Part shown: positions 23,405 to 49,308 of the stretch, piece after piece
Position numbering within the stretch: the first letter of the stretch is position 1
Layout: each line of letters starts with the position of its first letter
Assembly: GCF_030674635.1 (NCBI RefSeq)
Contig: NZ_CP089978.1
Coordinates: forward strand, 1,860,001 to 1,924,000
Source: Moraxella sp. ZY210820
GTDB taxonomy: Bacteria > Pseudomonadota > Gammaproteobacteria > Pseudomonadales > Moraxellaceae
Reading direction: 5' to 3'
DNA: 64,000 nt
Made by a program: the position numbers and the translations under genes
Notes under the pieces: model-generated
Told to the model about the DNA's origin: nothing
Databases searched by the model: none
The model's input: only the letters and a program-made list of their open reading frames with translations

Positions 23405-23465
23405 CTAACTAATACCCAATTATCACAATTATCAATTAGCCAAAATACCTGTAAGTCATTATAAT
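23405..23465 (+). promoter_or_regulatory. Recurrent promoter block, copy A (before frmA)
   Basis: CTAATACCCAATTATCACAA, then TTATCAATT, and TATAAT at 23460-23465. It is the first of five related blocks (others end at 27890, 39400, 42751 and 48820) that place an AT-rich TTATCA-repeat 35-45 nt before a perfect TATAAT. Confidence 0.5.
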
Positions 23466-23504
23466 CATTGCCATTTTAAAACCATTTGACAATCAGGTAT
23501 CCAA

Positions 23505-24623
23505 ATGAACACCATTAAATCCCGTGCCGCAGTGGCATTTGCCCCCAACCAGCCCTTAAAAATCGTAGAAATTGATGTAGAACGCCCCAAAAAAGGCGAA
23601 GTTTTGGTCAAAATCACCCACACAGGCGTGTGCCACACCGATGCCTTTACCCTATCAGGGGCTGACCCCGAAGGCTTGTTCCCTGTCGTGCTTGGACACG
23701 AAGGGGCAGGCGTGGTGGTAGAAGTGGGCGAGGGCGTAACTTCTGTCAATGTGGGCGACCACGTCATTCCACTTTATACGGCAGAATGTGGCGAGTGTGA
23801 ATTTTGTCAATCTAACAAAAGCAATTTGTGCGTATCGGTGCGCGCCACGCAAGGGCAAGGCGTAATGCCAGACGGCACCAGCCGTTTTTCTTATAATGGC
23901 GAGCCGATTTATCACTATATGGGCTGTTCCACTTTTAGCGAATACACGGTGGTGGCGGAGGTGTCGCTTGCCAAAATCAACCCCAAAGCCAATCCAGAGG
24001 AAATTTGCTTGCTTGGCTGTGGCGTAACCACAGGCATTGGGGCGGTGCATAATACCGCCAAAGTGCAGGCAGGCGACTCGGTGGCGGTGTTTGGCTTGGG
24101 CGGTATTGGTTTGGCGGTGATTCAAGGGGCAAAACAGGCGAACGCTGGGCGGATTTTTGCGATTGATACCAACCCTGAAAAATTTGCCCTTGCCAAAGAA
24201 TTTGGGGCAACCGATTGCCTAAACCCCAAAGATTTTGACAAGCCAATCCAACAAGTGTTGATTGAAATGACCAAATGGGGCATAGACCATACTTTTGAAT
24301 GTATCGGCAATGTGGAGGTAATGCGTGCGGCGTTGGAGTCGGCTCATCGTGGCTGGGGGCAGTCGGTGATTATTGGCGTGGCAGGGGCAGGACAAGAGAT
24401 TAGCACTCGCCCGTTCCAGCTTGTAACAGGCAGAACTTGGAAAGGTACGGCATTTGGCGGTGTCAAAGGTCGCTCACAATTACCGCAAATGGTGGAAGAC
24501 GCAATGGCTGGCAAAATCCGCCTGTCGCCTTTTGTAACGCACACAATGCCCCTTGATAAAATCAATGACGCTTTTGATTTAATGCACGAAGGGAAATCTA
24601 TTCGCAGTGTGATTTATTATTGA
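23505..24623 (+). CDS. frmA: S-(hydroxymethyl)glutathione dehydrogenase / class III alcohol dehydrogenase
   Basis: 372 residues, normal. It oxidises S-hydroxymethylglutathione (formaldehyde bound to glutathione) with NAD and also reduces S-nitrosoglutathione. Catalytic zinc ligands Cys43 and His65-Glu66 (GHEGAG), structural zinc Cys95, 98, 101 and 109, and the Rossmann GLGGIG are all visible. The product S-formylglutathione is the substrate of FghA, encoded 3.3 kb downstream. The gene is clearly richer in GC than glyQ and ends next to a perfect Neisseria uptake sequence, suggesting acquisition from Neisseriaceae, where it is called adhC. Confidence 0.95.
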   Translation: MNTIKSRAAVAFAPNQPLKIVEIDVERPKKGEVLVKITHTGVCHTDAFTLSGADPEGLFPVVLGHEGAGVVVEVGEGVTSVNVGDHVIPLYTAECGECEFCQSNKSNLCVSVRATQGQGVMPDGTSRFSYNGEPIYHYMGCSTFSEYTVVAEVSLAKINPKANPEEICLLGCGVTTGIGAVHNTAKVQAGDSVAVFGLGGIGLAVIQGAKQANAGRIFAIDTNPEKFALAKEFGATDCLNPKDFDKPIQQVLIEMTKWGIDHTFECIGNVEVMRAALESAHRGWGQSVIIGVAGAGQEISTRPFQLVTGRTWKGTAFGGVKGRSQLPQMVEDAMAGKIRLSPFVTHTMPLDKINDAFDLMHEGKSIRSVIYY

Positions 24624-24636
24624 TTGTGAAATAAAA

Positions 24637-24648
24637 ATGCCGTCTGAA
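24637..24648 (+). repeat. Neisseria-type DNA uptake sequence (AT-DUS)
   Basis: Exact 12-mer ATGCCGTCTGAA, the canonical uptake sequence of Neisseria, 13 bp past the frmA stop. Confidence 0.85.
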
Positions 24649-24739
24649 TGGGAAATTTGGGCGGTGTTTTTGTTTTTAGTATTGTTTATTTTTTAGACTA
24701 CAACAAATTACCCCTTAATTTACCCAATATATACAACCA

Positions 24740-48725: not shown

Positions 48726-48737
48726 TTCAGGCTGTCT
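48726..48737 (-). repeat. DUS-like 12-mer
   Basis: Minus strand AGACAGCCTGAA, one base from the Kingella-type dialect, 3 bp after the pseudogene's last stop. Confidence 0.5.
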
Positions 48738-48759
48738 AACAGAACATATTATAACCCCA

Positions 48760-48820
48760 CCTGATATACCCACCCATAACAACACTCAATTTTCCAAAAT
48801 AACCCAAATCTGCTATAATA
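48760..48820 (+). promoter_or_regulatory. Recurrent promoter block, copy E (before the second MBL-fold fragment)
   Basis: CTGATATACCCACCCATAAC, then AATAACCCAAATCTGC and TATAAT at 48814-48819; most diverged of the five blocks. Confidence 0.4.
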
Positions 48821-48826
48821 ACGCAC

Positions 48827-48952
48827 TTGTAACCTAAGCCAAAACCATTAGGACACCCAAATCCTAATGGTTTGATTTATTTGATGTATAATGAAACCCA
48901 TTTTTAAAAAATTCCTTAAATTTACCCTAGCCACTTTGGGCGTACTCACGCT
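48827..48952 (+). repeat. 126-bp direct repeat, copy 2
   Basis: About 97% identical to 42760-42885. Its leader hairpin AAACCATTAGGA / TCCTAATGGTTT is perfect over 12 bp, whereas copy 1 has one mismatch. Confidence 0.92.
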
Positions 48953-49308
48953 ATTGGAGTGGCGACACGGGTTATGCCCCGCATTTTAGCGACATCGGCA
49001 AAAAATACGGTGGATTTGACATCGCTTTTATGGAAATTGATGCCGCCAATCAAGGCTGGCCCAAAACGCATATGTTCGCCCACCAATCGGTTCAGGCTGC
49101 TTTGGATTTGAACGCAAAAAAAATCGTGCCAATACACTGGGGCGTGTTTAGTCTTGGTAGAAATCCGTGGTACGAGTCTATTGACAATGCGGTAAAAAGT
49201 GCCAAAGAACACAATTTGCCCATTGATGTCCCCAAAATGGGTGAGAAATATGCGGACGGTTTTGTAAATGAGGGTTGGTGGGAAAATAAAGCTTTAAGAA
49301 AAGAATAA
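48891..49308 (+). pseudogene. Internally deleted MBL-fold metallo-hydrolase gene
   Basis: The first ~21 codons equal the 5' fragment at 42821. After ACGCT the sequence jumps, out of frame, to the C-terminal part of the family: WSGDTGYAPHFSDIGKKYGG, GFDIAFMEIDAAN, and PIHWGVFSLG (a metal-ligand His). Residues of roughly the middle 200 codons, including HxHxDH, are missing. Both halves are therefore remnants of one type of gene. Confidence 0.82.

Follow-up and report, generated by a model that had tools for sequence, protein, structure and literature searches.

A probable Neisseriaceae-type hotspot of exchangeable predicted defence systems, marked by DNA uptake sequences, in an Acinetobacter-type chromosome

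Introduction

Defence hotspots of bacteria have fixed neighbour genes, between which the defence systems are exchangeable. Foreign uptake words reportedly betray the donor of a gene, as in the uptake-sequence-marked transfer between Haemophilus and Neisseria that Kroll is said to have described in 1998. In Neisseria, the minimal mobile elements (MMEs), reportedly described by Saunders and Snyder in 2002 and by Snyder in 2007, consist of conserved neighbour genes with varying whole-gene cassettes between them, often restriction-modification (RM) genes, and their exchange is thought to proceed by transformation and homologous recombination (PMC3082526). The DNA uptake sequences (DUS) are described as a fence holding transformation within Neisseriaceae dialects in PMC3630211, and the predicted transferred regions of Neisseria are reported to carry few DUS (PMC2397512). 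PMC3630211 also counts 1294 overlapping pairs of the words simDUS and kingDUS in Simonsiella muelleri, reports non-overlapping inverted pairs in other dialects, and finds a similar symmetry of other words in Kingella; simDUS and kingDUS are both enriched in Alysiella, Simonsiella and Kingella oralis (PMC10715097). Here, a DUS-marked island at 23405-49308 of a 64,000-nucleotide stretch from Moraxella sp. ZY210820 is analysed. With a probability of roughly three in four, it is a Neisseriaceae-type defence-hotspot locus in an Acinetobacter-type chromosome, likely acquired by natural transformation with free DNA.

The whole stretch is called the window (positions 1860001-1924000 of the genome, G000), and all coordinates are window positions unless marked as genome. 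The attribution of the island to one dialect clade corrects an earlier reading, and a locus of exchangeable predicted defence systems across classes is new. No description of DUS-marked islands in Acinetobacter or Moraxella was recognised in the open-access literature, judged partly from listings.

Results

Backbone genes match palindrome-rich Neisseriaceae

The island is foreign DNA of the donor-clade type, with a collinear backbone, exchangeable cargo and palindromes at the borders of its RM cassette. The backbone order, adhC, estD, an alcohol dehydrogenase (ADH) gene and a metallo-β-lactamase-fold (MBL) gene, is the same in the window and in the Neisseriaceae genome G814, and the contig of G797 shows estD-ADH-MBL (Table 1). 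Window positions 26900-46800 were searched against 83 Neisseriaceae genomes and the fetched donor loci then compared in detail; this query left out all of adhC and most of HamB, adhC was compared only with the fetched loci, and these loci, chosen for matching, are a non-random sample in their content. Overall, the backbone is 82-95% identical in DNA to palindrome-rich Neisseriaceae, which hold 911-1861 copies of the palindrome described below. The estD match spans 27920-28767 (91% to G797, 82% to G814), the ADH match spans 39533-40665 (92% to G798, 91% to G797, 83% to G814), and ada with its flank, 40588-41804, reaches 95.3% to G814 over 1.2 kb. The MBL gene, intact in G814 (PF12706), is present as two broken copies, at 42821-43096 and 48750-49308, the second composed of a leader and start (48750-48965) and a 3' part (48952-49308). 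These pieces are 84-95% identical to the donors, with one leader piece at 79%.

In the ADH tree (48 rows; bootstrap/Shimodaira-Hasegawa-like approximate likelihood ratio test), the window is sister to the Neisseriaceae genome G798 (98/87), followed by G075 (99/98), a genome of a second Moraxellaceae genus (g11). These three lie within a group of seven rows (100/100), and the wider clade contains six Neisseriaceae, four g11 rows and the window (99/96). Nine homologues from the host's own genus form a separate clade (100/98), own-genus ADH homologues being 58-74% identical in amino acids. The EstD tree, made by a quick method from 42 of 97 rows (the window, all Neisseriaceae and g11, the first 18 named and the first 10 other Burkholderiales), places the window with G797, G814 and two g11 rows (100), joined next by eight more Neisseriaceae and an Actinobacillus (97). 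The amino-acid comparison excluded repeated sequences and matches covering less than 85% of the query, thereby losing the ADH of G797 (split frame) and the AdhC of G814 (split over two loci). In this comparison, EstD is 92.5% identical to the g11 genome G089 versus 90.7% to G797, and AdhC is 97.8% identical to G075 and 87-89% to the best rows outside the pool. In a different search, the best 80 of at least 582 AdhC relatives include no Neisseriaceae. Since AdhC is so strongly conserved outside the pool, adhC by itself is no proof of origin. Snodgrassella, considered as a donor for its G+C, was set aside, the literature having yielded nothing on Snodgrassella DUS.

The initial annotation, made from the sequence alone, had proposed a Neisseriaceae origin for this part of a Moraxellaceae chromosome. 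The identities of adhC, estD, ADH, ada and most MBL pieces (82-95%) and the ADH tree agree with it. Its expectation that the genes nest within Neisseriaceae is borne out for ADH; EstD groups with Neisseriaceae and g11, leaving the direction undefined. Together, the ADH tree, the EstD grouping and the DNA identities point to a Neisseriaceae origin of the backbone.

One palindromic dialect marks the island

Eight dialects, with names partly checked against PMC3630211 and PMC10715097, were tested over the whole window. Exact 12-mers lie at 24637 (AT-DUS), at 27985, 28817 and 39311 (simDUS), at 39314, 42665 and 45040 (kingDUS) and at 43095 (eikDUS). The sites at 30673, 40672 and 48726 are one base off a canonical DUS, and additional one-mismatch sites are located at 27595, 27988, 28820, 30670, 31160, 36648, 42662, 46529 and 49091. 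Beyond 24637-49102, the window contains no exact or one-mismatch match to any of the eight dialects, and ten DUS-like 12-mers fall within the 25.9-kb island. The word AKGCNRYCTGAA has 10 matches in the window versus a shuffle mean of 0.18, with 10 or more in none of 100 shuffles, and the 15-mer palindrome TTCAGGCWGCCTGAA, with at most two mismatches, has 9 versus 0.08 expected by shuffle.

The words simDUS AGGCTGCCTGAA and kingDUS AGGCAGCCTGAA are opposite strands of this one overlapping palindrome, the arrangement of the overlapping sim/king dialect. Six of the eight exact matches are of this single palindromic site type, 39311 and 39314 being one site read on both strands. Across the 83 Neisseriaceae genomes, the exact palindrome occurs 726-2067 times in 10, 269 and 201 times in 2, and at most 63 times in the other 71; the donor-like genomes G797, G798 and G814 hold 1861, 1607 and 911 copies. 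G000 has 14 exact copies, or 22 with at most one mismatch. The donor loci themselves hold AT/AG-DUS and eikDUS words, so the single copies in the island need no extra donor, and the AT-DUS at 24637 falls within the adhC block common with G814 (90% DNA). With ada nearest to G814, ADH to G798 and estD to G797, the island fits a mosaic from close relatives inside one dialect clade.

In the whole of G000, AKGCNRYCTGAA matches 42 times versus 7 for the reversed control: 10 matches in the island, 19 at genome 1.750-1.776 Mb and 13 elsewhere, giving 0.39 per kb in the island and 0.0055 per kb outside both clusters. The word AGGCWGCCTGAA occurs 32 times versus 0 for its reverse. At least one copy is found in 156 of 299 genomes of the family, and the maximum among 125 other sampled genomes of the own genus is 6; the outliers in g11 are G075 (54), G071 (31) and G089 (18). 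In a sample of 274 genomes from across the class, AKGCNGYCTGAA is most frequent in G000, with 38 copies, and the runner-up has 19; a Neisseria gonorrhoeae record has 1833. The DUS excess is real and clustered, the island being one of at least two clusters. G000 is a single contig of 2,402,979 bases with 99.99% completeness and 0.03% contamination, which makes a chimeric assembly unlikely.

Each 12-mer of the initial annotation is present where it had been placed, and its observation that the flanks are free of such words extends to exact and one-mismatch copies of all eight dialects. The presence of DUS stands; the annotation gave a count of ten and listed eleven positions. Likewise, the enrichment is confirmed and its supposed restriction to the island is not, given the 19 of 42 matches in the other cluster. 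The proposed mosaic of donors with several dialects is not supported, with simDUS and kingDUS forming one palindrome and AT/AG-DUS and eikDUS words also present in the donor loci.

Predicted defence systems occupy the joints of the backbone

The cargo between the backbone genes comprises several predicted defence systems (Table 1): adjacent HamA and HamB indicate a Hachiman system, HsdM, HsdS and HsdR together a type I RM system, and SduA with its C-terminal domain a Shedu system. The content of the joints differs among the genomes compared, one per species. At the estD-ADH joint, G797 has another type I RM system (with its ADH frame split), G089 has the RM system of the window (with hsdM in two open reading frames, ORFs), and the joint is empty in G814 and G075. 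At the ADH-MBL joint, where the window has ada, G797 carries Gabija GajA/GajB, G814 a membrane-like ORF of no assigned family, and G089 genes of a cyclic-oligonucleotide-based antiphage signalling system (CBASS), namely a cyclase in two ORFs, E1-E2 and JAB; in G075, two ORFs without a PADLOC match separate ADH from its MBL piece. The adhC-estD joint of G814 contains an ATPase assigned to candidate family PDC-S01, along with other ORFs of no assigned family. Two conserved genes thus enclose differing cassettes across genomes at both estD-ADH and ADH-MBL, as in an MME, and predicted defence systems concentrate along the backbone, a hotspot with different cargo per genome in its joints.

In the empty estD-ADH joint of G814 and G075, one palindrome lies between estD and the ADH leader. 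In the window (28817-28831 and 39311-39325) and in G089, palindromes that are exact or carry one mismatch border the RM cassette on either side, and beyond the right one the ADH leader continues as in G814 and G075. The corresponding joint of G797 shows degenerate palindrome traces only. For donor-like blocks of at least 300 bp and at least 82%, 9 of 42 block ends in both clusters have a palindrome no more than 60 bp away (mean 1.5 and largest 7 over 2000 shifts), an enrichment to be read with the caveat that DUS sit between genes anyway; in the g11 loci, the figure is 9 of 44. Folding of five DUS sites places the DUS directly behind or overlapping a separate hairpin at three, and many shuffles fold as well as the site at 39311 does (z -1.5).

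Table 1. Features of the island and its host flanks (window coordinates)
Feature	Position	Strand	Family or identity
glyQ, left host flank	22278-23237	-	TIGR00388
adhC block, shared promoter element at 23409	23382-24648	+	85% then 90% DNA to G814
adhC, S-(hydroxymethyl)glutathione dehydrogenase	23505-24623	+	TIGR02818
AT-DUS in terminator-like hairpin	24637-24648	+	hairpin z -6.9
HamB helicase, predicted Hachiman	24740-26896	-	PDLC00180, E 2e-242
HamA, predicted Hachiman	26896-27747	-	PF08878; PDLC00166, E 3e-122
estD/fghA block, shared promoter element at 27834	27834-28768	+	91% DNA to G797, 82% to G814
estD/fghA, S-formylglutathione hydrolase; DUS within gene at 27985-27999	27926-28768	+	TIGR02821
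Palindromic DUS, 1 mismatch, left RM-cassette border	28817-28831	+	
HsdM, predicted type I RM	28924-31464	+	TIGR00497, PDLC03022
Two HsdS-like ORFs (31428-32672, 32856-33977) with direct repeats	31428-33977	+	
Small protein resembling repetitive extragenic palindromic (REP)-associated tyrosine transposases	34432-34977	+	NF047646, 57.3 bits, below cut-off 80
HsdR, predicted type I RM	35163-38144	+	TIGR00348; 98.8% amino acids to G089
Tyrosine recombinase beside RM genes	38308-39255	-	PF00589; 97.8% amino acids to G089
Exact palindromic DUS, right RM-cassette border	39311-39325	+	
ADH block, shared promoter element at 39344	39344-40615	+	92% DNA to G798
ADH resembling aldehyde reductase Ahr	39557-40615	+	NF047908, 324.9 bits, below cut-off 470
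ada block; Ada gene 40768-41826, DUS-like site 40672	40588-41826	+	PRK15435-like, below cut-off; ogt domain above cut-off
Phosphoenolpyruvate (PEP)-mutase/isocitrate-lyase family protein	41842-42615	+	PF13714
Palindromic DUS, 1 mismatch, ahead of MBL leader	42662-42676	+	
First broken copy of the MBL-fold hydrolase gene: 5' remnant, with shared promoter element at 42695	42695-43096	+	84-95% DNA to G814, G797, G798
SduA, predicted Shedu	43243-44343	-	PF14082; PDLC00403, E 3e-129, whole length
SLFN-g3 helicase, PADLOC candidate defence family PDC-S41; DUS inside gene (45040)	44347-46305	-	PF09848, PDLC05014; 68% DNA to G814
HxlR regulator	46355-46723	-	PF01638
ORF of no assigned family	46830-47231	+	
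NAD(P)-binding protein	47367-48023	+	PF13460
Short ORF, unmatched in Pfam and NCBIfam; thioredoxin-like on visual inspection	48099-48566	+	
Second broken MBL copy with DUS-like site at 48726, at the right island edge	48726-49308	+	79-90% DNA to G814, G797
hrpA, right host flank	49473-53396	+	TIGR01967

The genes following the helicase are also shared in part, with 46369-48031 being 82% identical in DNA to G075 and the region 46355-48566 being 69-79% identical to G814. Within 31428-33983, the hsdS ORFs contain direct repeats of 300 bp that are 99% identical and 750 bp apart, beside the tyrosine recombinase, and an hsdS switch through recombination of these repeats is likely. Short repeats around GGGCGAATAT...ATTCGCCC (34021-34977) adjoin the ORF resembling a REP transposase. 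The ADH leader (39431-39505) includes an imperfect palindromic repeat; G089 has a similar copy (L221:3536-3612), and the leaders shown for G814 and G075 lack the repeat. In G814 (L161:3060-8604), a relative of the helicase at 44347-46305 adjoins Lamassu-like LmuA and LmuB.

A promoter element shared by the backbone genes

An element composed of CTGATACCTAATTATCAAAATTATCAATT followed by a TTATAATA-like -10 is located upstream of adhC, estD, ADH and the MBL leader. The four backbone sites score 27.7-32.8 and the rest of the window at most 13.7. Four of the six seeds come from the window, which makes the window sites circular and only the others independent; the non-seed sites, two in locus L093 and ten in donors, score 15.7-29.5, one donor site being identical to a seed. 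Loci L092 and L094-L098 contain no match. At the same threshold, five shuffles give 0-3 matches per 64 kb; control sets from Acinetobacter, one of 149 kb and one of 169 kb, give 5 each. A common regulator of the backbone genes is suggested by this element, with HxlR (46355-46723) and the LysR genes of the pool as candidates.

A second island and a second recipient genus

The second DUS cluster, at genome 1750347-1775843 (L095, L096), encodes oxidoreductases, LysR regulators, MBL-type lactonase-like proteins, efflux-like small proteins and a PtuA-like ATPase. Compared with the donors by matches of at least 150 bp and at least 78%, the best blocks of this island (L096) are 84-94% identical in DNA to G797, G798 and G814. 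Smaller palindrome sites are scattered at genome 680306, 699913, 707018, 863431 and 1811819 (L092-L094, L098); L093 and L094 have blocks of 89-94% to the same donors, and L092 and L098 have none in the fetched donor loci.

In g11, G089 shares the RM block with the window at 97.0% DNA over 4.0 kb. The part from estD through hsdM is 93.7% identical over 3.6 kb and the recombinase end 92.8% over 1.2 kb, with the hsdS part matching in rearranged pieces only. At another place, G089 has a 1.57-kb block that matches the Neisseriaceae genome G814 with 98.3% identity. The RM block of G089 and this 98.3% block together imply a pool common to at least three genera and two NCBI classes. The DUS clusters of G089 lie on contigs of 0.67 and 1.16 Mb, unlike those of G075, whose draft contigs C16, C27 and C61 are short with very dense palindromes and could in part be Neisseriaceae contamination. 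A locus of a further g11 genome (G010, L226:7309-12438) carries arsenic- and metal-resistance-type genes that are 86-95% identical to G797 and also 85-88% identical to records of Pasteurella multocida and Glaesserella parasuis; the cassette pool may reach Pasteurellaceae.

Host chromosome and flanks

Of 46 plasmid-collection records, the one that best matches the rpsL-rpsG-fusA-tuf region of G000 is from Acinetobacter baumannii (86.6% DNA identity), and a genome of the same genus code has Acinetobacter in 16 of its 17 matching records. The core genes thus point to Acinetobacter as the host genus. Matches listed for hrpA in the same genus are 67-80% identical, the host being distant from its sampled relatives. 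The segment 39533-59532 has some match in all 139 host-genus genomes, and outside G000 all matches listed begin in or beyond hrpA; the listing extends down to about 734 bits, and a copy of ada or ADH at 85% would score above this.

Discussion

Donors probably close to the Alysiella/Simonsiella/Kingella oralis group would have supplied the island as free DNA taken up by natural transformation. Acinetobacter would exert no DUS selection, and the DUS of the island would be leftover stamps of the donor rather than a cause of uptake. The cassettes would have been swapped in by homology of the backbone, perhaps aided by the 15-bp palindromes; the collinear backbone and the palindromes at the RM borders suggest an MME-like incorporation by homologous recombination. 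The backbone enzymes may detoxify formaldehyde and other aldehydes or electrophiles under a common regulator, the cargo would protect against phages, and the imported genes at genome 1.75-1.78 Mb may come from the same donor pool.

Several observations weigh against this account. No single donor carries every gene at top identity. The defence cargo is at best 64-72% identical in DNA to Neisseriaceae in long matches, with most of HamB outside the query, and may have entered from elsewhere or later. In the ADH tree, a tenth own-genus row (L252) stands elsewhere on a long branch and Neisseriaceae do not form one group (5 changes); the inner order of the EstD tree gives no transfer direction. The same-genus hrpA loci examined, including nine fetched stretches, have no glyQ near hrpA and offer no empty host site, and there is no integrated intermediate of the transfer. 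Moreover, 33 of the 42 block ends lie away from any palindrome, and the promoter element is found nowhere in the second big island (L096).

The strongest rival is that the block reached Acinetobacter via g11, a genus that is perhaps Moraxella and would have taken it up earlier. This is a minority possibility but a serious one: G089 has the estD-RM-ADH block at 93.7% over 3.6 kb and 97.0% over 4 kb, with HsdR at 98.8% in amino acids, its EstD is closer to the window than that of G797 (92.5% against 90.7%), and AdhC is 97.8% identical to G075. However, ADH is nearest to the Neisseriaceae genome G798 (98/87), ada is 95% identical to G814 in a comparison for which g11 was not searched, and donor sampling is thin, such that a closer Neisseriaceae strain may carry the RM genes. 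Movement of the island as an integrative element, whether an integrative and conjugative element, prophage or transposon, with incidental DUS is improbable. The tyrosine recombinase and the transposase-like ORF inside the island would suit it, but an NCBIfam scan of 20 proteins shows neither phage structural nor conjugation proteins (attachment sites were not searched for), the recombinase also accompanies the RM genes in G089, which fits an hsdS switch, and the donor matches go gene by gene rather than as one element. Marginally less credible still is a gift of one piece each from several Neisseriaceae genera of different DUS dialects. Four dialect words do occur and different genes are nearest to different genomes, but the palindrome unites simDUS and kingDUS in a dialect common to G797, G798 and G814, whose loci also contain the other words. 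That the palindromes are ordinary host terminators and the genes old family members is scarcely credible despite the terminator-like hairpin adjoining the DUS at three of five folded sites, given that none of 125 other genomes of the genus has more than 6 sites, that the genes match Neisseriaceae at 82-95% in DNA, and that own-genus ADH reaches only 58-74% in amino acids.

Uptake of Neisseriaceae-type DNA by an Acinetobacter-type host remains the preferred reading. A bolder, tentative extension is that the palindromic DUS acts as a portable joint outside Neisseriaceae, where units of promoter, gene, terminator and DUS and palindrome-bracketed defence systems would plug together by recombination, forming one pool for Neisseriaceae, Acinetobacter and the second Moraxellaceae genus. 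If true, DUS would spread between classes as a standard for modular exchange, including in recipients without DUS selection. On the preferred reading itself, DUS-bearing DNA has left Neisseriaceae and entered another class, with identities pointing to recent exchange. DUS would then be a readable stamp for gene flow out of Neisseriaceae and between distant classes, and predicted anti-phage systems of distant bacteria could use one set of landing sites. With the island, it also becomes directly testable whether competent bacteria that do not select for DUS import such cassettes and insert them at palindromes.

Compared with described systems, the locus combines familiar parts in a different setting. 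Like the MMEs of Neisseria, its joints hold different whole-gene cassettes between conserved genes; unlike them, the conserved neighbours have themselves moved into Acinetobacter and into another Moraxellaceae genus, several joints follow one another, and the cargo also includes predicted Hachiman, Shedu, Gabija and CBASS systems. The same word pair forms the overlapping dyads of Simonsiella muelleri and its relatives, whereas the host here is a gammaproteobacterium with 14 exact sites in all, clustered with imported genes. As in the Haemophilus-Neisseria case, foreign uptake words point to the donor, but the recipient has no known uptake-sequence selection, the words mark two multi-gene clusters rather than single genes, and they are the overlapping sim/king DUS. 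Finally, what sets the locus apart from defence hotspots elsewhere is that its fixed neighbours encode enzymes, have promoters and DUS of their own, and are common to two classes.

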